Shown: positions 36,344 to 50,053, counted from the stretch's first letter. The stretch is DNA of 50,053 nucleotides from Candidatus Tharpella sp. (GCA_021161425.1 JAGHAQ010000041.1:1-50053), one strand, 5' to 3'. Numbers and translations: made by a program. Notes: a model not told the origin generated them from the sequence alone.

Positions 36344-38404
36344 GTGAATACAGTTAATACCATAGCGCCGGGTGCCAGGGTCGTAATTCGGGATGCCGAA
36401 TGGCTGGTGCGGAAGATGGACAGGACCTCAACCGGCGGATTTGCCCTGACTGTGGTCGGCATTTCGGAACTGGTTAAGGATAAAGAGGCAATTTTTCTTG
36501 ATGAGATTGACACAAATATCGAGGTTCTTGATCCCGTAGATACCAAACTGGTGCCCGACACCTCCAGCTCCTATCAGGGTTCTCTACTTTACATGGAAAG
36601 CCTGTTGCGACAAATTCCTCCAACAGACGAAAAACTCTACGTCGGCCATAAAGCCGCCATGGATCACGTACCCTATCAGCTTGACCCGGCAATTCAAGCC
36701 TTGGAGCAACCCCGACAACGCATATTAATTGCCGATGCCGTTGGCCTTGGTAAGACTTTGGCCTGCGGCATTCTGGTCAGCGAGTTGATTCGCCGAGGCA
36801 AAGGTAAGCGTATTCTGGTACTGGCTGTAAAAAGCATGCTGACCCAGTTCCAGAAAGAAATGTGGTCGCGCTTCACCATTCCTCTAGTTCGCCTTGATTC
36901 GGTCGGCATTCATCGGGTTCGTTCCAAAATCCCCACCAATCACAACCCTTTTTACTATTACGACAAAACCATTGTCTCTATCGACACGCTGAAGCAAGAC
37001 ACCGAATATCGCAACTATCTGGAAAACGCCTATTGGGACATCATCGTTATCGATGAAGCTCACAATGTCGCCCAGCGTGGCAAAGGTTCTTCGCAACGCG
37101 CCAAACTGGCCAAACTTCTCTCCGGACGATCCGATACTTTGATCATGCTATCAGCAACCCCGCATGACGGCCGGGCGCGAAGTTTTGCCAGTTTAATGAA
37201 TATGCTTGATCCCACAGCCATCGCCAACCCGGACAACTATGGGCCGGAGGATATCAAAGGTTTATGTATCCGCCGTTTTAAAAAGGATATTCAGGATCAG
37301 GTGCAGAGCGCCTTTAAAGCCAGAGAGATCAGCAAGGCCTACTGTCAGGCGACCAATGTCGAAGAGGTTGCATATGATATTCTGTCTGAAATGCAATTTG
37401 CCAAGTTGGACCAACACAAAGGTGCCGGACAACTCTTTAAAACTACCCTGGAAAAAGCGTTGTTCTCCAGTCCTGCGGCCTGTCTTTTAACAATTTCTAA
37501 CCGGATCCAGCGTCTTAAAAAAGATGATTCCCCGGAAGCCTTACAAGATATTGAACGCCTTTCGGAACTTGCCGTAGCAGTATTCGACATCACCCCTGTC
37601 AATTTTTCCAAATATCAGAAACTTCTCTTCGTTATCTCCGACAAAAAACATGGCTATGGCTGGACCGGAAAATATAAGCATGACCGTCTCGTCATTTTCA
37701 CTGAACGCATCGAAACCTTACGTTTTCTGGAAATGCATCTTACCAAAGACCTCAAATTGAAAAATAATCAAGTCGCTATCCTGCATGGTACCATGCCTGA
37801 TGTGGAACAACAAAAAATCGTCGAGGATTTCGGCAAGGAAGAGGCCCCGGTGCGCCTGCTAATTGCTTCTGATGTCGCTTCTGAGGGTATCAACCTACAT
37901 TACTTAAGTCATCGACTTATTCATTTTGACATCCCCTGGTCACTCATGGTTTTTCAGCAACGAAATGGACGGGTTGATCGTTATGGTCAGGAGCACACTC
38001 CCTATATTCTCTATCTAGTTAACCAAAGCGTAAACGACAAAATCAAAGGCGACATGCGTATTCTTGAGCTCCTCATCGCCAAGGATGAAGAGGCCGTAAA
38101 AAATATCGGCGACCCCTCCGCCCTCATGGGTGTCTATGACATTGATGAAGAGGAGCGGATAACTGCCAAAGCCATTGAAACCGGTATCAGCAGCTTGGCT
38201 TTTGAACAGAAATTAAACCAAAATAGTGATGAGGCTTTCGACCCGCTCGCCCTTTTAATGGGTGGGAATGAGTCCGACAACAAACCACCAGCAGCCGAAA
38301 ACCGTTTAAGCTCCATGCCCACCCTCTACAATGATGATTTCTCCTACCTTAAAGAAGCCATTGAGCACTTAAGGCAAGCGGAGACCCTTACAGGCCGATT
38401 TTGA
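36344..38404 (+). CDS. SNF2-family helicase 1 (N-terminal portion; frame lost near 38387)
   Basis: Walker A DAVGLGKTLACGI, DEAH VIDEAHNVAQ, LSATPHDGRA, SDVASEGINLHYL, motif VI QQRNGRVDRYGQ. Confidence 0.88.
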   Translation: MNTVNTIAPGARVVIRDAEWLVRKMDRTSTGGFALTVVGISELVKDKEAIFLDEIDTNIEVLDPVDTKLVPDTSSSYQGSLLYMESLLRQIPPTDEKLYVGHKAAMDHVPYQLDPAIQALEQPRQRILIADAVGLGKTLACGILVSELIRRGKGKRILVLAVKSMLTQFQKEMWSRFTIPLVRLDSVGIHRVRSKIPTNHNPFYYYDKTIVSIDTLKQDTEYRNYLENAYWDIIVIDEAHNVAQRGKGSSQRAKLAKLLSGRSDTLIMLSATPHDGRARSFASLMNMLDPTAIANPDNYGPEDIKGLCIRRFKKDIQDQVQSAFKAREISKAYCQATNVEEVAYDILSEMQFAKLDQHKGAGQLFKTTLEKALFSSPAACLLTISNRIQRLKKDDSPEALQDIERLSELAVAVFDITPVNFSKYQKLLFVISDKKHGYGWTGKYKHDRLVIFTERIETLRFLEMHLTKDLKLKNNQVAILHGTMPDVEQQKIVEDFGKEEAPVRLLIASDVASEGINLHYLSHRLIHFDIPWSLMVFQQRNGRVDRYGQEHTPYILYLVNQSVNDKIKGDMRILELLIAKDEEAVKNIGDPSALMGVYDIDEEERITAKAIETGISSLAFEQKLNQNSDEAFDPLALLMGGNESDNKPPAAENRLSSMPTLYNDDFSYLKEAIEHLRQAETLTGRF

Positions 38405-39194
38405 TGACGACCTACAACAGATATCCCTAACCGCCACCAAAGACCTTAAACATCGACTTAAATTCACTTTGCCCAGCGAGGTCTGGCCGGATGACGAAAT
38501 CTTTGTTCTATCTGCCGATCCTGATGTGATTCAGAAAGAGATCAAACGCAGTCGTAAGGATGAAAATGCATGGCCAAACATCCACTACCTCTGGCAGCAC
38601 AACCCGATCCTTGCCTGGATTAACGATAAGGTTGTTGCTGAATTCGGTCGGCATGAAGCACCAGTATTAACTCTTTTCAGTACTTTGGCTCAGGGCGAAA
38701 CAGTCTTCATTATTTCCGCCCTGATCCCTAACCGCAAAGGCCACCCTCTGGTTCATCGCTGGTTTGGCGTCACAGTTAAGCAAGATGATTTCCAGCAAAT
38801 TGAAAAGTTCAAACCTCTGCTAAATAGAACCGGTCTCGGCAAAAATCGATTCCCCAGCAAAGAGACCCAACTTGACCTTGATTCTCTGCGACGTCTTTTG
38901 CCCGAAGCTGTACAGCAGGCCAAAATCTATATGAGTGAGCAACGGCAAACCTTTGAAGATATGATCAACCCCAAACTCCAGGAACAGCTTGATAAATTAG
39001 AGCGACTTAAAGGCAAACAATACAAACAGCTTGAACTCTTCTATATGGAGAAAAAGCAAATCAACAAGAAAGAGCAGGAAAAGCGCGAAATCGAGCGCAA
39101 ATTTGATGAATTCATCGATTGGGTTGAAGAGACCATGACGACTGAAGACAAGCCCTTTATTCAGGTTGTTGCCGTTTTGCAGGGGGCTCAATAA
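38405..39194 (+). CDS. C-terminal portion of SNF2 helicase 1 in the +1 frame
   Basis: Open frame reads LQADFDDDLQQISLTATKDLKHRLKFTLPSEVWPDDE... with no stop or start at the junction; contains FGRHEAPVLTLF and SALIPNRKGHPLVHRWFGV. The track ORF starts at TTG 38469. Confidence 0.7.
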
Positions 39195-42100
39195 TGGCCG
39201 GTTTCCTTCAAGATCCGATCTCAATAATCAATCTTATCTCTGACAATCTCCGCGATCGTTACAGCAGATTTCAAGTTTTAAAGGAAATCATTCAAAATGC
39301 TGATGATGCAGGGAAAGGCAACCTAAATATCCACTTAGAATATGGTATTGTCAACGGTTTATCCTCCGCTGAGCACCCACTTCTCCAAGGACCAGCTCTA
39401 TTCTTTCTTAATGATGGTACGTTCTCTGATTCTGATGAAAAAGCTATACGTTCATTCGGTCTGAACCAAAAAGCAGAGGATGCAGCCTCTATTGGAAAAT
39501 TTGGCTTAGGCATGAAGAGTGTTTTTCACTTCTGCGAAGCCTTTTTCTTCTTGGCGCAAGATAATAATAAATCTTATTCAAATATTCTCAACCCTTGGTC
39601 GGGAAGTGATGATTTTAAATCAGTGCATGAAGATTGGGAAGGGTTTACGAAGAGTGATGCTGAGCTGATAAGAAATCGCTTGACCCGAGTTTTTGATAAC
39701 TTGGAAGAAAAGCGAGAATCCTACTTTCTAATATGGCTTCCACTACGTATGAGAAAGCATCTCCAAGTTGATGAAACTGAAGTTGGTAGTATTGTTTCAG
39801 AATTTCCCGGTGATGATGCCCGCCAACTAGCTTTTCTGGATGAAAATATATTACCACAAAAACTTGCTGCCCTGCTCCCTTTACTACGTTGCCTGGAAGG
39901 TATAAGATATTGGCGTGAACAAGAAACTGGCGATCTTGAACCGGCCTTTCACATTCTTCTAAAAGATTATTCCGCACGGATTAAAGGTTTTAAAGAGGAA
40001 AACTGCAGTTTCTCTTTTAGCGGTGAAGTCGAATATTTTGTTGGCAACGACAAGCCATCGTTGCAATCATATCACGGTAAAGAGAGTTTTTTACAATCTA
40101 AAACCCTCTCCTCACTTAAAAAATCCGACTTATGGCCCAAAAGCTACGTGCGTGACGAAAATGGTATTAGCCAAGAAGCCCCCGACAAAGCCAAGCCCCA
40201 TTGCGCCGTATTTTTTTCGCGTTCACCAACCATACAGAAAAGTGAATTAAGACTACGCTGGGCCGTTTTCCTGCCGGTCAAAGCGGGAGAAGAAAATATT
40301 CAGTGTAAAGGTGATATTTCTTTTCGTTTGTTTTTACACGGCTATTTTTTTGTTGATGCAGGCAGGACGGATATTGACGGATTACAAGATAATTCATCAT
40401 CAATAACTTTAAACGGCCAGCTAAAAAACGAAGCTGATCTTCGTAAAACTTGGAATATCTATTTGGCCGAAAAAGGTATCTTAAGGTTGATTTTGCCAGC
40501 CTTGGGCGAATTTACAAGAAAATCGAGACTTTCCTTTCTTGAAATCTATAATCTCTGCACAGCACTTAAAGAAACAAATCTTTTTTGCGAAAAAAGAGAG
40601 CTTATTTGCAATTCATATCAGTGGCTGTGTACTATTACGCCCACCAAACAAGTGTGGAAACTTGTCCCCAGAGACAAAAAAATCCTTCCTTTGCCAACAC
40701 CTCCTAAATCAGTATCTGAGAGACCATGGCAAACATTTACAAAACTTCAACACTTAGACAATGATGTTGTCTTTATTTTAACTAATGTACCGCATTTGAT
40801 GTGCTCTCGTTTACCTCAATGGGATGAAACCGACCTTGAAATATTTCTTGATTCTACTGTTGTAAAAAATTTCAACGACCAGGGCCGTTTGGAATATATG
40901 TTAGATTTTTTGTTCAGTAACGGCGTTAGACCTTTTCTTAAACTACCATCTTTACAAAACAAACTACAGGAACTTCTCCGACAGGCTTTCATCGAATTTG
41001 GTGATGACCTCCGTCAATATCGTCAAAAGATTCATCAATATGTTTCTCTAATTCTACCGGAAAGAAGATATGTTATTAATAATGTTGACCAGAAAATATT
41101 TTGCCAACTCCAAAAAAGTCGAACTGATTGTCTTGTCCTGAATAACTATTTTGATGCAACGGAAAATCCTGGCAAAGCTGATCTCTCTTACGAAGACAGT
41201 CTAAAACTTTTTCATCAACTAAACGATTTAATTCTCAAATACAGCAATACTGAAGATCAAGAAATTGTAAATTCATGCCGAGTGATCATTCGGAAAATAT
41301 TGCAATCCATCAAAGAGGAAGATCGCCATAGACTGCTTAATAGTTCGGCAACCACTTTAAAATTATTAGAAGGGTACGATTGCCAAAACGACACCCTTAA
41401 GTCTCTTTCTGCCGAGGAAATTCGGAAATGTATGAATGATGGTTTATTATTTATTTACTCCTCGGGTATAAATGACCGGCAAAAACATGGACTGGCACCA
41501 AAGTTACAAAAAGTAGTCAAAGGTCGAGTTTTACTGATTCCTAGCGAAACGGGCAAATTACTTTTTGGTTCAAACCATAGTTTATTACCTTGTCATTCAA
41601 ACAGTATACTTAATTGTCTTGGATCGCGAGAACAACGATTGCAATCAATAGAAAACCGGCTAAATTTACTGGCAGATGTTGCCGGTGCTGATCTTCTATC
41701 AGAACAACGTGTACGAGGATTGCGGTACCTTCTCCACGGTACTGAAGACCGATTTTACGATTGTTCTACACTATGGGTTTCCGGACATGAACAAAGTCCT
41801 GTTTGGATAAAACTCTGGCAACAGGTTAAAGAAACCGAAAAAGATAACTGGAATTTACTGGAGAGAACACTGGTCGGTAAAATTCCATCAGATAAATGGA
41901 CAGATCTATCAATCCGAGAAATCAAACCTGAAGGAATTCTGGGTGAGCTTAGAAATAAGGGTACAGATGTTTTAACAGGTAATCTTTTCAACCTGGACGA
42001 GCGTAATGCTGTTCTAAAAGAACTTATCAGTGATGAGCAGCTTTGGAAACAGTTACCGTTTCATGAAACGGTAAGCGGATGCTTGGTCAGCATAACAGAA

Positions 42101-45100
42101 AAGTCTTATCTCGAAACAGGTATTTACCTGCCCGATGAATTGCAAGACCATGTCAACATAATCAAACCTTCAGATGACTTTACCATCAGTAGACAACAAC
42201 GTGATTGGCTTATCCCTCTTTCCAAGCAAGACGTAATCAAAACGGCTTTAAAATATGATCAGGCTGTAAATTTCTGGCAACTGATAATGGACAACCTTGA
42301 GCACCCCAGTTTGGACGCCGACCTAAACTATTTGTTGCGTAATGCCGCTTGGATACCCGACGTCAATTACAATCCTGTAAAGCCATCAGAGGTAATCTAT
42401 CTTGAAAGTATGCAGGATGAGGTAGACAGATTGTTGGTGGCTGCTCGTAACATTTTCTGGTCACCCAGCAAACTGCACAAAAAAGTGCAAAACCACCCAT
42501 CCTTTGCAATGCTTAAGGAATCCTATTTTGCAAAAGATCACGAGGGGCTTGAGCAATTTGGTCTACTGTTGGGCGAAACAGAAGAATATCATATCGGCAA
42601 CTTTGGCAAAGGGGATAATTTCAAACGAGTACTCACTGTATGCTCCCGTATTCCCTTGAACCTGAACCTTCCAGGGTGGACGTTGCTATCCAATGCTTCT
42701 AAAATTTACTCGTTGGATATAATTGAAGAACACCTTTTGCCGGAAATGTTAAAAACAGTCAGCATGGGGAAGATCTTCAACACATTAAAATGGTTGCAAA
42801 ATGAGCACGTCAGAACCGGCCAAAGTGAAAAGAAAAATGTTTTAGTTGCTTTTAACGCATATCTTTCTGCCTTTGTTAATGAGGGTGGAAGCAATCAAGA
42901 TCTTTTCCAATTTCACTTGTTGAACCATGAAGAAAGATGGAAACCAACCAATCAACTTTGTGTCGAGGTCCAAGGTGTTTCGGAAGCCTTTTTGTTGGAT
43001 TCTGTTCAAAGAAAAATTTTATCTAAAATTATTTTTTCAGGTGATCAACATTTCCAAAATAATGTTATTCAACTGAATGCCAGAATTGATGACACTAAAG
43101 AATCTCCAAAACACATTAAGCAGTACTTTTCTCTCTGGAAAGGACTTGTAGCTGATGAAGTGATTTGTGCATTCATTACCCTGCTTGGAGATGACACGGA
43201 AATCTGCTCCCTGGCTAAACAATACCAAGGAAGGCATTCTGTCGATTGGATACGACATGAAATCCCCTGGAACCCAAGCAATTATTGGAGCATTAGCAAA
43301 CAGGAAGCATTTGCAAAACACAGAGTCGTCGTTAAAATTCACGATGACACAGTTGTTAAGACATATTCAATACGTGGTGATAAAATTGAGCTACCTGTAA
43401 GTAAAAATATTGATTCACTGTTTATAAATTGTGTTTTCGGTCTTTCTGCTGGAAGTTATAGAGTCTCAAAATTCAATTTAAGGAATTTTCACCCTGGAGA
43501 GAAAACGAGTGCTGAACTGACAAAACTTCTCAAATCTTCAGCTGAAATCATCTTGAAAGGTGCTTTCAAACAGGAAAACTATAATCTTGATTTGCTATGG
43601 CAAAAATTGGATAAATCAGAGCAACTTGACATTAAAGTAGCCCAAAGCCTCATTCTCAATCATATGCCATTTTATTTGAGACAATTGGGAATACATAAAC
43701 ACCCCATATTGCAGAACCTACTACATCAATGGCACGATGCCTGTTGTAGACAAGAAGAATATTATGATTCACCAAATAAAAGACAAAAATATGAGGATGA
43801 AAAAAGGATGCATTTGCAAAAGATACGTGATCTTTTGCTAAATGATGGGGCGGCTCAAAAGATTGTTTTGAATGCTGTTCGTGCAAAGATTAAAGACTTT
43901 CAGTATACGCCTGCCAGCATTCCTTTTGAATTATTTCAAAATGCTGATGATTCTATGGCAGAACTCGTAGAAATAAAATCACATCAAAATACTGTTCCAA
44001 GGAATGTTAAACGATTCTTGATCCTTGATGATGGTAAATCAATGACTTTCATCCATTGGGGAAGAGCTATCAATGCGGATGGTGGTGCCGGGTTTCCAGG
44101 ACGTAAAAGAGGATTCCATTATGATCTAGAAAAAATGTTGGTACTATCTTCTTCTGATAAATCTGAAAACAACAGGGTCACCGGAAAATTTGGCTTGGGT
44201 TTCAAAAGTGTTTTATTGGCTAGCGATAAACCAAAATTGATTAGTGGTCGCTTGTCAGTAGAAATTATTGCTGGTCTCTGTCCGATACTTCTTAAAAATA
44301 CAGGAGAGCTACGCCAAAAGTTACATGAACATTCACCAAGTAAACAATATCAGGGCACACTTGTAGAAATGCCATTAACCGAAGCATCATCATTAGATGT
44401 AATGGCGTTTTTTCCTGACCTGGCTGGTATCATGACCATCTTTGCTAAACAGATTCGCCAAATTGATATTCATGGGAAGCAAAGCCATTCCTGGGAATGG
44501 ATACCTGACATAATACCTTTATCAGATACAACTTGTCTTGAAATCGGTGAATTGAGCCTGCCAGGTAGTTCAAGACAAAAAGAATTGTTACTTTATTTCA
44601 GGATTGACAAAAGTGGGGTCTTGGTGGCTTTGGGGCCGAAAGGATTTCGACCTCTTCCAAATGAATTACCAGCGGTGTGGGTGGTTGCGCCAACGGGGGG
44701 GCAAGGTCCTGGTTTTTCCATTAATGGTTCCTTTGAACTTGATGCTGGGCGGGCCAACCTTTCCAGTAGCAGTGCTGGCAACCAGGAAATGGCTAAAAAT
44801 CTTGGACAATCTTTTGGAAAACTGCTCTCGGAACTCTACAACTTGACCGAAGATCAAAATCAGTGGGAAGGTATAAAGGGTAAATGTCGTTTAGAAAAAG
44901 ATCTTACTCCCTACCTCTTCTGGTCAAGTTTATGGGAAGTATTAGGTAGGGGATTGTCTTTCACAGGGGGAAATGAAGCAGTTCGCTTGGTTATAACGCA
45001 AGTATTAACTGAAGAAAGTGGCCTCGGCTATCTACTTAGACATTCCGATGCAATGCCGAATGGGCTATGGGGTAAATTTCAGGCCTTAACCAATCCGAAA

Positions 45101-46750
45101 AAGATCAAGACAGTTCTCAAGGGTTGTTTGGAACGGGAAACAGTTTTCAAAGGACTTTCAAGCTGGGAACCGTTAAAAAACATACTGACAGATCCAGGCT
45201 CTACAATTTCTGAATATACATACAATGTCGCAAGAAAGATTACATCAGATATAGGTCTAACAACTGATCAATGGCGTTTCGTACACCTTGATGATCTACT
45301 TAATGACTTCACATCAAGTGGCGGAGAACTAACACCTGAAGCGGCAACCGTGCTTGGAGGAACGCTCAACCATAGAAGCTTAGATCAGGATGAATTTAAG
45401 AAGGAAAAAGAGCAAATCATCAGGGCGTTAAGATCTTTTTCCTTCAAAGCCTTGGACGGTTCTCGGCAGCCATCCAGTAAGCTTCTGTTTCAAAACACTC
45501 ATAAGCGGGCAAATCCCGATGAAGCAAAGCGGGCGGCCTTTGCCCCGGACAGATATATTCTGTCTCCTGAATATGAAGCCAACTGTCTGGATCTCTTTTT
45601 TATCTGTCGCGAGAAGATCGCTATTCCGGCAGATGAAATGGTAACCTGGTTGCTTGACGCCTCGAACGATACAAAGAGAGAAAAAGGATTGAGCTATCTG
45701 CTGGAAGGTGAACATGGAAGAAGTACGGCAAAATCTTTGAGAGGACGCGGTTTACGTGGTACGTGGTTAGACGAGCTAAGTCCGACATCAACACTTCTCG
45801 CAGACTGGGCAGCAGATGATCGTATTGATCTGATTTGCAGAGATCTCAAATCGACAGATGAACTTCGCCAATTTGAATTTTCGGATGAAGAAGATTACTC
45901 TTTACTCGAAAATGAATTAGGCGGATATGCCCCCAAAGAGGTTTTACAGAAAATTTATTGCTGGTGGGCTGCCAACAAAAGTAAATATCTGTTCAAATAT
46001 GAACGCAAAACATATCCTGCAAATATCTCCATTACCTTCTTAGAAGATGATGTTGGCCGCATCGACAGAAAATCATGGTTGACATTGTTCAGTCTCTCCC
46101 ACTTTCATACAATTGGTCGCCAGAGAGACGTACAGCATAAAGGTTTTATTGATAAGTGTATAAGTAGGGGGTGGTGGGATACTTTTTCTAAAGAGCAACC
46201 AGATGAGAGATCTGATGAATGGATGAAGGTTTTGGAAGATTATATCAATGAACAGGTTGATGTAAGCGAGTATGAACTCTGGATGAATCATTTTCCAGCT
46301 ATCTATAAATTTGCTCGGTGGATGGAAGACTATAAAGAGGCATTTCTTTGTATCGAACGTATGGACACTTTAGATTCAAATACAATCGCTGGGATATTAA
46401 GGCCAAAAACAAATACCCAATTTCAGGGTGGCGGAATAAATGCCCCACCCAATGAAAAAAGTTTGGGAATCGGAGTGTGTTTTGTCCTGCGTGAACTAAA
46501 AAGAAAAAAAATCATTAATAATGACCTGGTTATCCCATACTGCTATGTCCCGACCAAAAGTATTCGGGATTTTTGTAACTTACTTGGCTGTAACGTGCTA
46601 TCGGAAAATGGCGGAATTTATAATTCCAAAAAGATTTATGATTTTCTTTACCAGCATTTAGATGAACAAGCTACATTCCTTGATTGTTACGATATACCAT
46701 TACGATTTGTAGCAAATGACCCCGATCTCCTTAAATCAATTTTGAATTAG
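39194..46750 (+). CDS. Giant (2518 aa) sacsin-like protein with two GHKL ATPase domains
   Basis: GHKL-1: LKEIIQNADDAG ... IGKFGLGMKSVFHFCE; GHKL-2: PFELFQNADDSM ... LILDDGKSM ... TGKFGLGFKSVLLASD; start overlaps the helicase stop (TAATG). Confidence 0.85.
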   Translation: MAGFLQDPISIINLISDNLRDRYSRFQVLKEIIQNADDAGKGNLNIHLEYGIVNGLSSAEHPLLQGPALFFLNDGTFSDSDEKAIRSFGLNQKAEDAASIGKFGLGMKSVFHFCEAFFFLAQDNNKSYSNILNPWSGSDDFKSVHEDWEGFTKSDAELIRNRLTRVFDNLEEKRESYFLIWLPLRMRKHLQVDETEVGSIVSEFPGDDARQLAFLDENILPQKLAALLPLLRCLEGIRYWREQETGDLEPAFHILLKDYSARIKGFKEENCSFSFSGEVEYFVGNDKPSLQSYHGKESFLQSKTLSSLKKSDLWPKSYVRDENGISQEAPDKAKPHCAVFFSRSPTIQKSELRLRWAVFLPVKAGEENIQCKGDISFRLFLHGYFFVDAGRTDIDGLQDNSSSITLNGQLKNEADLRKTWNIYLAEKGILRLILPALGEFTRKSRLSFLEIYNLCTALKETNLFCEKRELICNSYQWLCTITPTKQVWKLVPRDKKILPLPTPPKSVSERPWQTFTKLQHLDNDVVFILTNVPHLMCSRLPQWDETDLEIFLDSTVVKNFNDQGRLEYMLDFLFSNGVRPFLKLPSLQNKLQELLRQAFIEFGDDLRQYRQKIHQYVSLILPERRYVINNVDQKIFCQLQKSRTDCLVLNNYFDATENPGKADLSYEDSLKLFHQLNDLILKYSNTEDQEIVNSCRVIIRKILQSIKEEDRHRLLNSSATTLKLLEGYDCQNDTLKSLSAEEIRKCMNDGLLFIYSSGINDRQKHGLAPKLQKVVKGRVLLIPSETGKLLFGSNHSLLPCHSNSILNCLGSREQRLQSIENRLNLLADVAGADLLSEQRVRGLRYLLHGTEDRFYDCSTLWVSGHEQSPVWIKLWQQVKETEKDNWNLLERTLVGKIPSDKWTDLSIREIKPEGILGELRNKGTDVLTGNLFNLDERNAVLKELISDEQLWKQLPFHETVSGCLVSITEKSYLETGIYLPDELQDHVNIIKPSDDFTISRQQRDWLIPLSKQDVIKTALKYDQAVNFWQLIMDNLEHPSLDADLNYLLRNAAWIPDVNYNPVKPSEVIYLESMQDEVDRLLVAARNIFWSPSKLHKKVQNHPSFAMLKESYFAKDHEGLEQFGLLLGETEEYHIGNFGKGDNFKRVLTVCSRIPLNLNLPGWTLLSNASKIYSLDIIEEHLLPEMLKTVSMGKIFNTLKWLQNEHVRTGQSEKKNVLVAFNAYLSAFVNEGGSNQDLFQFHLLNHEERWKPTNQLCVEVQGVSEAFLLDSVQRKILSKIIFSGDQHFQNNVIQLNARIDDTKESPKHIKQYFSLWKGLVADEVICAFITLLGDDTEICSLAKQYQGRHSVDWIRHEIPWNPSNYWSISKQEAFAKHRVVVKIHDDTVVKTYSIRGDKIELPVSKNIDSLFINCVFGLSAGSYRVSKFNLRNFHPGEKTSAELTKLLKSSAEIILKGAFKQENYNLDLLWQKLDKSEQLDIKVAQSLILNHMPFYLRQLGIHKHPILQNLLHQWHDACCRQEEYYDSPNKRQKYEDEKRMHLQKIRDLLLNDGAAQKIVLNAVRAKIKDFQYTPASIPFELFQNADDSMAELVEIKSHQNTVPRNVKRFLILDDGKSMTFIHWGRAINADGGAGFPGRKRGFHYDLEKMLVLSSSDKSENNRVTGKFGLGFKSVLLASDKPKLISGRLSVEIIAGLCPILLKNTGELRQKLHEHSPSKQYQGTLVEMPLTEASSLDVMAFFPDLAGIMTIFAKQIRQIDIHGKQSHSWEWIPDIIPLSDTTCLEIGELSLPGSSRQKELLLYFRIDKSGVLVALGPKGFRPLPNELPAVWVVAPTGGQGPGFSINGSFELDAGRANLSSSSAGNQEMAKNLGQSFGKLLSELYNLTEDQNQWEGIKGKCRLEKDLTPYLFWSSLWEVLGRGLSFTGGNEAVRLVITQVLTEESGLGYLLRHSDAMPNGLWGKFQALTNPKKIKTVLKGCLERETVFKGLSSWEPLKNILTDPGSTISEYTYNVARKITSDIGLTTDQWRFVHLDDLLNDFTSSGGELTPEAATVLGGTLNHRSLDQDEFKKEKEQIIRALRSFSFKALDGSRQPSSKLLFQNTHKRANPDEAKRAAFAPDRYILSPEYEANCLDLFFICREKIAIPADEMVTWLLDASNDTKREKGLSYLLEGEHGRSTAKSLRGRGLRGTWLDELSPTSTLLADWAADDRIDLICRDLKSTDELRQFEFSDEEDYSLLENELGGYAPKEVLQKIYCWWAANKSKYLFKYERKTYPANISITFLEDDVGRIDRKSWLTLFSLSHFHTIGRQRDVQHKGFIDKCISRGWWDTFSKEQPDERSDEWMKVLEDYINEQVDVSEYELWMNHFPAIYKFARWMEDYKEAFLCIERMDTLDSNTIAGILRPKTNTQFQGGGINAPPNEKSLGIGVCFVLRELKRKKIINNDLVIPYCYVPTKSIRDFCNLLGCNVLSENGGIYNSKKIYDFLYQHLDEQATFLDCYDIPLRFVANDPDLLKSILN
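39284..39535 (+). other. GHKL ATPase site 1 (N-box EIIQNADDAG to G2 box GKFGLGMKSV)
   Basis: Motifs read from the translation. Confidence 0.8.
43918..44225 (+). other. GHKL ATPase site 2 (N-box ELFQNADD, G1 LDDG, G2 GKFGLGFKSV)
   Basis: Motifs read from the translation. Confidence 0.8.
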
Positions 46751-46759
46751 AGAGAAATT

Positions 46760-49429
46760 ATGCTTAAATTTTCCGCCGGACAAACCGTCTTTCATACTCA
46801 ATTCGGTACCGGACATGTTGAGTTCAATAAAGAAGAAACAGTTATTGTTCGCTTCGATCATGGTTTGGAAGAGTGTATTGCCGGGTCGCTGGAAATAAAG
46901 TCAGATATTGCTGAAAACATTGACAGAGGGAAGCTTTCATCGCCTACTGAAACGGCCTCCCGCGTTTTAGCTGAAGCTATTATTTCGGTAAATGATAATT
47001 GGGGGGTTTTTTCAAAATCAAGAATTGCCCTGCTTCCCCATCAGCTTTGGGTTTGTCACCGAGTTCTTCGGCAATGGCCGGCTCATTATCTGGTTGCTGA
47101 TGACGTCGGGCTTGGCAAAACCATTGAAGCTGGCCTTATTTTATGGCCTTTGTTGGCAAAAGGGCTGGTCAAACGTCTTCTGGTTATAAGCCCAGCCTCA
47201 CTGGTCGAACAGTGGCAATTTAGATTACGGGATATGTTTGATATCCGTCTAACCCGTTATCTTCCTGAGGCGGATACCGCCCGTTCAGATTTCTGGAACA
47301 CTCAAAACCAGATTGTTGTCTCTCTACAAACCCTGCGGGATGATCACAAGGGCCGTCATCAACGCCTGCTTGAGGCCGAGCCCTGGGATCTGCTTATTGT
47401 CGATGAGGCCCATCATCTAAATGCAGACAAAGATTCCGGAGCTACCCTGGGTTATCGCCTGGTAGATAATCTGGTTCGAAAAAATCTGACCAAATCCAGA
47501 ATATTTTTCACCGGCACACCCCATAAAGGCAAAGATTTCGGTTTCTTTGCCCTTCTGAAATTATTGCGACCTGATCGGTTCTCTCCAAACAAACCAATAC
47601 ATCAACAACTTCCCCACCTTCGTGACGTAATTATCCGCAATAATAAACAGAACGTTACGGACATGGAAGGTAAAAAGATTTTCAAACCGATAACGGTAAG
47701 CTCTGAAACCTATTCTTACACCGAAGAAGAAACATCCTTTTATAATATTTTAACAGACTTCATCACTTCAGGGAAAACATACGCTTCCTCCCTTTCCAGC
47801 AATGATCAGCGGGCGGTTATGCTTGTCTTAATCTCCATGCAAAAGCTTGCCTCAAGTTCAGTTGCCGCAATCAGAAAAGCTTTAACCGGACGCCTGTCAC
47901 GCTTAAAAGAAGCGGGTAACAATTTGCAACAGGCCCAGAAACGACAACAGGTTATCCGAGAAATTTTATCCCGTGCTGACGAATCAACCGTTTCATCTTT
48001 GACCGACGAATTGCAGAAACAAGATGAACTGGTTGCCGGATTATCATCGTCCCTGCCGTTGATGAAAGATGAAATCCCCTTATTGGAAATATTAGTAGAC
48101 GCAGCTGACAACATAACATACGAAACAAAAATCAAGAAAATTATCGAAATACTTGAAACTCGCTACCGTAATCGCGCAGTTCTTTTATTTACAGAATATA
48201 AAGCAACCCAGGCATTGTTGATGTCTGAACTAATGCAAAAGTTCGGCGATAATAGCGTTACTTTCATTAACGGTGACCATAGAGCTGAGAATGTAGCTGG
48301 TTCTGACGGTAAACTTCGGACAATCTCTCTCAAAAGAAATGACGCAGCCGATCTCTTCAATGATGGCAAGGTTCGTTTTCTGGTCTCTACTGAGGCCGCT
48401 GGTGAAGGTATTGACCTTCAGGAATCATGTTTTTCTCTTATTCATGTTGATCTGCCATGGAACCCGATGCGGCTTCATCAACGTGTAGGCCGTTTGAACC
48501 GGTATGGTCAAAAACATCCGGTTGAAGTCATTAACTTGCGTAATCCAGACACGGTTGAATCCCGTATCTGGGACAAATTGAATGAAAAAATCAGTAGCAT
48601 CATGCAGGCCCTGGGCAGTGCTATGGATGAACCTGAAGATCTGTTGCAACTGGTTTTAGGAATGGCGTCCCCTTCTTTATTTACAGAGCTTTTTACAGAT
48701 GGAGCAACTGTTCCGGCCGACCGGTTGGACAACTGGTTTGACACCAAGTCAAAAACATTCGGTGGAAATGATGCTATTGAAACCGTCCAGAACCTGATTG
48801 GCAACTGTTCCCGATTCGACTACCAGGATCTCAAAAGAATCCCAAAAAAAGACCTCGAAGACCTCCAACCTTTTTTTGAAACCATGCTCCTTTTGAACAA
48901 ACGGCGAGTATTACATGAGGATTCAGGTTTGTTATTTAAAACCCCGGATGAATGGTTGAAAGATGCCGGAGTCAGAAGGCGTTATGAAGACTTGGTTTTT
49001 TCTCGAGACTTAAAAGGGAAAGATGCGGCTCTGCGAGTTGTCGGCGTGGGACATAAAGTGTTTGATCAAGCTTTAATGCAAGCCGGCGGATACGATGCCT
49101 GCCTCACACAATTTTCCGACCTAGAAGAGCCATTGGTAATCTTTAAAATATTTGACCGAGTCACGTCCCAGGATGGTAATGTTCGACAAGTTATAATCGG
49201 CATTAAGGGTAATAAAGATGAAATATTGCAGGATTGGCAGCTGATAGATCTGATAAATCAATTGTTAAAGTCAAAAAAACCAAGTTCTGAAAGTGAAAAT
49301 CGTCTCGAATCACAGGCATTACATAGTATTATTAAAAACTCAGAAAATACCCTCAAGCAGCATATAGAAAGTTTGAATCTTCCCTTTAGCGTACCTGAGA
49401 TTAAACCTTTGGCCCTGTTCATACCTTAA
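46760..49429 (+). CDS. SNF2/RapA-like helicase 2
   Basis: Walker A DDVGLGKTIEAGL, DEAH IVDEAHHLNAD, FTGTPHKGKDFGFFALL, STEAAGEGIDLQ, HQRVGRLNRYGQKHPVEVINLRNPDTVESRIWDKL. Confidence 0.92.
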   Translation: MLKFSAGQTVFHTQFGTGHVEFNKEETVIVRFDHGLEECIAGSLEIKSDIAENIDRGKLSSPTETASRVLAEAIISVNDNWGVFSKSRIALLPHQLWVCHRVLRQWPAHYLVADDVGLGKTIEAGLILWPLLAKGLVKRLLVISPASLVEQWQFRLRDMFDIRLTRYLPEADTARSDFWNTQNQIVVSLQTLRDDHKGRHQRLLEAEPWDLLIVDEAHHLNADKDSGATLGYRLVDNLVRKNLTKSRIFFTGTPHKGKDFGFFALLKLLRPDRFSPNKPIHQQLPHLRDVIIRNNKQNVTDMEGKKIFKPITVSSETYSYTEEETSFYNILTDFITSGKTYASSLSSNDQRAVMLVLISMQKLASSSVAAIRKALTGRLSRLKEAGNNLQQAQKRQQVIREILSRADESTVSSLTDELQKQDELVAGLSSSLPLMKDEIPLLEILVDAADNITYETKIKKIIEILETRYRNRAVLLFTEYKATQALLMSELMQKFGDNSVTFINGDHRAENVAGSDGKLRTISLKRNDAADLFNDGKVRFLVSTEAAGEGIDLQESCFSLIHVDLPWNPMRLHQRVGRLNRYGQKHPVEVINLRNPDTVESRIWDKLNEKISSIMQALGSAMDEPEDLLQLVLGMASPSLFTELFTDGATVPADRLDNWFDTKSKTFGGNDAIETVQNLIGNCSRFDYQDLKRIPKKDLEDLQPFFETMLLLNKRRVLHEDSGLLFKTPDEWLKDAGVRRRYEDLVFSRDLKGKDAALRVVGVGHKVFDQALMQAGGYDACLTQFSDLEEPLVIFKIFDRVTSQDGNVRQVIIGIKGNKDEILQDWQLIDLINQLLKSKKPSSESENRLESQALHSIIKNSENTLKQHIESLNLPFSVPEIKPLALFIP

Positions 49430-49464
49430 AATCAGGGCGAATCAATTATTTATAGTTGAAAATT

Positions 49465-50053
49465 ATGGCCATCGATATTACCGGCATCAACAACGAGAAC
49501 GAGTTTTACACCCATCATTATCTCTCCGCTATCCTGGAAAATGATTTGAAGGATGTCTTTGCGGAGTGGAAACGGCGGGATGAAAAGGATGGGGTTGTCC
49601 AACCTTATGTAACTCTCAGAAGTTTGCGAAAAAGTTTTTTCGTCACCCAAGACCTTCTCAGCCGAGAGCGAAAAAACCGTGAGCGGCTTGCGCTGCAAAA
49701 AGATTTACTGGCCGGGTTTCTCTCCGCTCTGGGTTATGAATGGCAAAATGAACTGGTCACTATGGATGATGGTTCTGTTATTCCTTTAATTGGCGGTATC
49801 AATAAAGCCGATGGCTCGCCAGATCTGTGGATTATTCAGGCCCTGGATATTTTTGCTGAGGAGGCTGATCCTCTGGAATTGCGGCTCGTTCCTGAACAAT
49901 ATCCAGACGGTGTTGAAGCAGAGAAGGTTCTTGATCTCCCTTTTACCGAGATTATCAGCAAAAATATCTTCAGCCGCAGTGAACCTCCCCGCTGGTTGAT
50001 TCTTATCAGCAGCACCCAACTTCTTCTCATTGACCGAACCAAATGGAATGAGA
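49465..50053 (+). CDS. N-terminus of a large protein cut by the window edge; putative Eco57I/PglX-like DNA methylase/type IIG-like protein
   Basis: Continuous frame from ATG 49465 to the window end: MAIDITGINNENEFYTHHYLSAILENDLKDVFAEWKRRDEKDGVVQPYVTL...; absent from the ORF track because it has no stop in the window. Methylase call rests on N-terminal resemblance and gene context; no catalytic motif is visible yet. Confidence 0.5.
   Translation, partial: MAIDITGINNENEFYTHHYLSAILENDLKDVFAEWKRRDEKDGVVQPYVTLRSLRKSFFVTQDLLSRERKNRERLALQKDLLAGFLSALGYEWQNELVTMDDGSVIPLIGGINKADGSPDLWIIQALDIFAEEADPLELRLVPEQYPDGVEAEKVLDLPFTEIISKNIFSRSEPPRWLILISSTQLLLIDRTKWNE

Follow-up and report, generated by a model that had tools for sequence, protein, structure and literature searches.

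A sacsin-like GHKL–SNF2 gene pair, apparently undescribed, interrupts an ARMADA type II locus

Introduction

Do four tightly packed genes at the end of a bacterial contig form one defense system, or are they two units, one lodged inside the other? The question is raised by positions 36344–50053 of a 50,053-nucleotide stretch of DNA from Candidatus Tharpella sp. (GCA_021161425.1, JAGHAQ010000041.1:1-50053), analyzed here at its full length and called the window. In this region a SNF2 helicase gene (gene 1), a giant gene for a sacsin-like ATPase with two GHKL heads (gene 2), a second SNF2 helicase gene, RapA-like (gene 3), and a truncated gene 4 follow one another on the plus strand. A sequence-only reading had proposed that they make up a single undescribed system. 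We find instead that the window holds an interrupted ARMADA type II locus, with armA as gene 1 and armB as gene 4, and that genes 2 and 3 are an apparently undescribed two-gene module of a sacsin-like and a RapA-like protein. The nesting is well supported, and we consider the nesting together with the identity of the parts very likely to be right. Taken as a whole, the locus is probably an ARMADA operon into which a free-standing GHKL–SNF2 defense module was inserted horizontally, between armA and armB.

The source genome (G000) is known from a metagenome-like assembly that is 63% complete and comprises 123 contigs with a total of 1.6 Mb. The 3′ edge of the window, 50053, is the end of the contig and cuts gene 4. 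Among the comparison genomes, G010 belongs to the same genus as the window and G012 is another species of that genus; L-numbers denote loci.

Results

The outer genes are armA and armB

ARMADA, described in a preprint on the YprA family, has phage assays behind it, protects E. coli and requires all four of its genes (PMC12458937). Type II consists, in strict order, of ArmA, a BrxHII/RapA-like helicase, ArmB, a PglX-like methyltransferase with SAM and NPPW motifs, ArmC, a YprA-like helicase, and ArmD, a RelE-UvrD helicase. The operon of E. coli ATCC 8739, the one deleted and tested in that work (PMC12458937), was located and served as our reference for identity, its proteins being compared directly with those of the window. 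Gene 1 is 60% identical to ATCC 8739 ArmA over 629 amino acids (aa), with a further 40% over 264 aa; gene 3 reaches only 27% identity to the same protein. Gene 4, of which only the first 196 aa are present in the window, is 33% identical to ArmB over 219 aa. Its ortholog in G012 matches ArmB with 51% identity over 840 aa and carries the S-adenosylmethionine (SAM) motif EPAMGSAAF, which bears out the earlier suggestion that gene 4 encodes a methylase. This ortholog is readable to 807 aa, and the NPPW region lies past the contig ends in both the window and G012. Complete gene 4 orthologs are DNA methyltransferases of 1564–1614 aa.

The order of the genes in relatives agrees with this assignment. 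The gene 1 ortholog stands directly before the gene 4 ortholog in G307, G393, G200, G380, G017 and the same-genus G010. G307, G393 and G380 have complete armA-armB-armC-armD sets, in which armC encodes a 2100-aa DruE/YprA-like helicase and armD a UvrD helicase; armC and armD are contiguous in these three genomes and in G012, and the start of armC is found in the source genome on contig C56 (37% identity over 225 aa). The relatives have the strict order armA-armB-armC-armD and the window does not, as its armA and armB lie 10.3 kb apart. We therefore file it as an interrupted ARMADA locus and not as an ordinary member.

Orthologs of armA are continuous at 948–990 aa. In the window gene 1 reads as two open reading frames (ORFs), 36344–38404 (686 aa) and then a second frame to 39194, with one surplus base near 38387 (site 38380–38404) relative to G011 and G010. 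The orthologs, that of G011 included, read open across this site, and the frameshift may be genuine or may stem from the assembly. The description of the four genes as collinear on the plus strand stands, but gene 1 is not a single ORF as it had been read.

In G380 (L080 6743–10906), a transposase-looking ORF on the opposite strand interrupts armA; the ARMADA locus there is otherwise complete.

The GHKL–SNF2 pair occupies the armA|armB junction

The same-genus genome G010 has an empty junction, in which armA and armB overlap by TAATG (...GCAGAATAATGGCAATCGACATTACC). The window armA ends in ...GGGGCTCAATAATGGCCGGTTTCC and runs into the GHKL gene, and armB starts at ...GAAAATTATGGCCATCGATATTACC, 10.3 kb after the end of armA (Table 1). 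The TAATG overlap at 39192–39196, the gap of 9 nt between 46750 and 46760 and the gap of 35 nt between 49429 and the ATG at 49465 are all as first read from the sequence. With a stop/start overlap on its left and a 35-nt gap on its right, the insert keeps the polycistronic layout, so that both units would be readable from one transcript; this layout suggests co-transcription of the insert with the ARMADA genes.

Contiguity of armA and armB is seen in 11 non-E. coli genomes, G010 among them. In E. coli the junction is uninterrupted in 520 of 521 genomes with a match, each having one place that covers 80% or more of a 2-kb query across the junction; in the sole listed exception the match runs off the end of the record. 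The second species of the genus, G012, has the insert too: its contig C104 (L045) carries the GHKL C-terminus, the SNF2 gene and armB, and the end of contig C83 cuts its armA. Between G000 and G012 the identities are 93% for armA, 86% for SNF2, 74% for armB and 66% for GHKL, so divergence is greater in the GHKL protein than in its SNF2 partner.

A step to low guanine-plus-cytosine (GC) content is limited to the insert. The GC fraction is 0.396 in gene 2 and 0.433 in gene 3, and armA (0.470) and armB (0.463) match the other contig sequence (0.473, standard deviation 0.018). The A-rich composition that had been ascribed to the whole island is therefore confined, with its low GC, to genes 2 and 3.

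Other junctions of ARMADA loci also hold genes. In G011 (contig C250, L093 2347–2718) the armA|armB junction contains a gene for a 123-aa TIGR02436 four-helix-bundle protein with G/C-rich, repeat-like flanks. The armB|armC junction is variable as well (L106 677–2953, L073 12882–13444, L074 13046–13767 and L107 1–5864). Before armC lie small gene pairs that look by eye like toxin-antitoxin genes in G000, G307 and G393, and ATPase genes in G011.

Table 1. Features of the interrupted ARMADA locus in the window
Feature	Position	Strand	Evidence
armA, ARMADA type II BrxHII/RapA-like SNF2 helicase, frameshifted near 38387 (gene 1)	36344..39194	+	ArmA identity, unbroken orthologs
Left insertion joint: armA stop/GHKL start TAATG, in place of the armA/armB TAATG overlap of G010	39192..39196	+	
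2518-aa sacsin-like protein, two GHKL heads (residues ~19-125 and ~1555-1700), helix-rich regions between and after (gene 2)	39194..46750	+	
889-aa RapA-like SNF2 helicase, constant GHKL neighbor, intact helicase motifs (gene 3)	46760..49429	+	Profile matches, adjacency
Right insertion joint: AAATTATGGCC, armB start region	49460..49470	+	
armB, ARMADA type II PglX-like DNA methyltransferase, first 196 aa (gene 4)	49465..50053	+	ArmB match; cut by contig end

The insert encodes a two-headed sacsin-like ATPase and a RapA-like helicase

Profile matches confirm the domains that had been recognized in the first three genes, namely SNF2, two-headed sacsin/GHKL and a second SNF2. Gene 2 matches Pfam SACS (3.7e-32, two stretches, 112.5 bits against a cut-off of 32.8) and NCBIfam P_loop_sacsin (1.2e-34, two stretches, 118.6 bits against a cut-off of 50), as well as the N-terminal domain of sacsin in the PDB (1.7e-12). 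Among nine homologs, the N-box QNADD and the motif GKFGLGxKSV are kept in both GHKL heads, and the canonical first glycine box of the second head is absent in most. AlphaFold models of residues 440–1530 and 1901–2518 are largely helical, with predicted local distance difference test scores of 79 and 76. Sequence searches and the comparison of these two models with the PDB detected no nuclease in the protein, a result that neither supports nor excludes a hidden one.

The closest solved structure to gene 3 is RapA, which gives the best profile matches. The PADLOC model PDLC02634, labeled DrmD, matches gene 3 over its full length at 1076 bits. The curated DrmD cut-offs of NCBIfam are widely missed, both by gene 3 (308 bits against 610, and 178 against 950) and by a gene 1 ortholog (345 bits against 610), and with both SNF2 families so far under them DISARM class 1 was rejected. 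The proteins encoded between 35465 and the contig end at 50053 gave no DrmB or DrmC match and no full-length DrmA, the matches to DrmA models covering the helicase core only. Hma was rejected too: matches to HmaA are likewise restricted to the helicase core (180–234 bits) and are outscored by DrmD-type models, and genes 2 and 4 have no Hma match. As for BREX, no PglZ or BrxC/PglY match was found among the island proteins. The likeness to Hma, DISARM and BREX proposed in the sequence-only reading thus comes down to shared helicase and methylase superfamilies. Because PADLOC scores the gene 3 family as DrmD so highly, DISARM may be credited with a module foreign to it; this is a practical hazard, as automated annotation may mislabel the GHKL–SNF2 module accordingly.

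At one locus (L009 20377–21198), a partial second copy of the C-terminal third of the SNF2 gene, 38% identical to that of the window, follows the full gene.

The pair recurs elsewhere, apart from armA and armB

We defined the module as a GHKL gene directly followed on the same strand by a RapA-like SNF2 gene, an arrangement that the window shows. A scan of genome contigs gave 34 loci, and searches of relatives, of the phylum and of plasmids gave further ones. In all of the loci with a visible GHKL C-terminus, 21 of 21 with the window included, the next gene downstream, on the same strand, is a RapA-like SNF2 gene. The hosts of the pair belong to the phylum of the window, Myxococcota, Pseudomonadota, Chloroflexota, Cyanobacteriota, Verrucomicrobiota and Deinococcota, the last on a plasmid. 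Cultured hosts include Marinobacterium lutimaris (L011 10001–20299) and Amphritea atlantica (L010 10001–20310). Any match to the module is present in 10 of 398 genomes of the window's phylum, and a search of a phage collection returned no match to the gene 2 protein. Outside the window's genus, armA and armB are not neighbors of the pair. The proposal of one undescribed four-gene system has therefore to be given up: the outer genes belong to the named ARMADA type II, and the inner pair is independent of them. Homologs do occur together elsewhere in the case of the inner pair, but the four-gene set is not found outside this genus.

Known defense genes lie next to the pair at several loci. They include DrmA/DrmB (L004), DrmD with a C5 methylase (L011), BrxHI/PglZ (L013), PglZ/BrxL (L029), a divergent DrmD-like helicase with a type IIG-like methylase (L014), Cas7e (L007), a BrxC-like protein (G089, L086) and, on a Trichormus conjugative plasmid, drmC (L104). 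The original idea of a defense island is supported, and the company that the pair keeps makes it quite likely that the pair is itself a defense module. No named sacsin–SNF2 or sacsin–DarT system was found in the open-access literature, supplements excluded, and no earlier description of the pair as a system seems to exist.

In one clade DarT and DarG replace the SNF2 partner

The partner of the GHKL protein is not the same in every lineage. Two ORFs share the GHKL protein between them in a cyanobacterial clade. A DarT domain (Pfam, 4.4e-25) stands at the C-terminal end of the second, and the next gene encodes a macrodomain protein that PADLOC calls DarG (1.4e-52). DarT and the macrodomain are found in seven loci (L016, L017 and L020-L024), and the SNF2 gene in none of the seven. 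A tree of the first head, arbitrarily rooted and with some long branches, places the DarT-linked proteins in a single group (100/99) beside the cyanobacterial SNF2-linked proteins, and the two form a joint group (99/98). DarT/DarG has replaced the SNF2 partner in this clade. The DarT region gave no sequence match to solved DarT structures. In Myxacorys californica (L016 10001–19095) the GHKL-DarT-macrodomain set lies inside a DISARM class 1 operon, with DrmMI on one side and a UvrD-like helicase, DrmA and DrmB on the other.

Relatives of this DarT-linked GHKL clade at L015, L019, L025 and L034 have no detectable DarT, and L019 retains a remnant of the macrodomain.

Discussion

The tight spacing of the four genes on one strand, kept in one related species, is what a single undescribed four-gene defense system would show, but the two halves are apart almost everywhere, the junction is empty within the genus and the GC content differs, and such a system is extremely unlikely. 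Another possibility is that the insert is by now a working part of an expanded six-gene ARMADA in this genus, sharing its transcript and cooperating with ArmA–D. Its seamless joints do preserve the operon, the layout and its armA, SNF2 and armB genes are conserved in two species at the identities given above, and GHKL modules are also found in or by DISARM operons that share the helicase–methylase pair. This is nevertheless unlikely given that the pair is alone in most genomes, that ARMADA genes and a GHKL–SNF2 pair lie at separate places in G402, and that the window armA is frameshifted. The frameshift could also mean that the island is decaying, the insertion and the lesion in armA having killed ARMADA so that only the GHKL–SNF2 pair, or nothing, works. 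A polar insertion and a fragmentary metagenome-assembled genome would fit such decay; however, a lone indel in an assembly of this kind and completeness is a common assembly error, the GHKL, SNF2 and armB frames are open, and the G011 ortholog is open across the same site, so we regard decay as improbable too. A non-defensive pair, made of a sacsin/Hsp90-like stress chaperone and a transcription-recycling RapA-like ATPase, is suggested by the fact that sacsin and RapA are the closest solved relatives of the two proteins. The sparse occurrence of the pair in the phylum, its spread across phyla and plasmids, its island neighbors and the exchange with DarTG make it very unlikely.

We favor the insertion of a free-standing defense module into an ARMADA operon, and several points have to be set against this reading. 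The documented ARMADA insertions amount to one event only, and as a result of contig breaks armA, the insert, full armB, armC and armD are never on one contig. With armA frameshifted in the assembly, ARMADA may be dead here. The link of the pair to defense genes is one of guilt by association, from counts that had no random-gene control, and we know of no phage assay of the pair. Foldseek searches of the PDB with both gene 2 models gave nothing at E ≤ 0.001, which leaves the linker and the C-terminal region without assignment.

That the GHKL protein acts as the switch, with its partner as the output, is suggested mainly by the exchange of SNF2 for DarT and its antitoxin. Hsp90, MutL and MORC behave as ATP-driven clamps. 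By analogy, the SNF2 motor would engage DNA, or polymerase on DNA, and the GHKL heads would close as an ATP-driven clamp on a DNA or protein structure specific to infection, and this closing would switch on the output. In the main clade the output would be SNF2 activity, translocation or remodeling of DNA, by which replication or transcription of the phage is blocked; in the cyanobacterial clade it would be DarT, a thymidine ADP-ribosyltransferase, held by the DarG macrodomain. We give a clamp or sensor with swappable output somewhat less than an even chance. More tentative still is the broader view that the two-headed sacsin-like ATPase may be a general bacterial immune switch with exchangeable output, a cassette that spreads into ARMADA and DISARM junctions and provides layered immunity from a single transcript. 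The exchange of a motor for DarTG does suggest an immune role of sacsin-like ATPases, in sensing and switching. The window itself offers the case of one likely defense module lodged between two genes of a four-gene system, seen at base-pair resolution, and the same genus also supplies the empty site; ARMADA has itself only just been described.

Among known systems, the MORC GHKL restriction systems encode a GHKL ATPase together with a superfamily II helicase and a methylase (PMC2292703). Compared by gene neighborhood only, MORC/paraMORC are the nearest precedent for the pair through this GHKL–helicase theme; gene 2 is instead a sacsin-type giant with two heads and its own RapA-like partner, and no fused nuclease was found in it. 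Tiamat has in common with gene 2 the N-terminal GHKL/sacsin-like ATPase lobe of TmtA. It was rejected as an assignment, since the match is limited to about 100 residues (19–122 of 2518 in gene 2, 25–115 of 1370 in TmtA), and gene 2 differs from TmtA by its two heads, its length and its constant SNF2 partner. With eukaryotic sacsin, gene 2 shares the N-terminal ATP-binding domain, with a significant match to solved sacsin domains, but it has no detectable HEPN, DnaJ or ubiquitin-like domain. DISARM class 1 has distant helicase and methylase families in common with the island, the "DrmD" of PDLC02634 being the gene 3 family, and GHKL modules lie beside or inside DISARM operons in other genomes. 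In classical DarTG, DarT stands alone, free of any GHKL scaffold; in the one cyanobacterial clade the scaffold bears a C-terminal DarT and is followed by the DarG macrodomain gene, whereas the window is without DarTG. The closest system is ARMADA type II: over all that can be seen of them, genes 1 and 4 are homologs of its ArmA and ArmB, with their relative order kept. The window differs from it by the armA frameshift and by the 10.3-kb GHKL–SNF2 module that stands between armA and armB.

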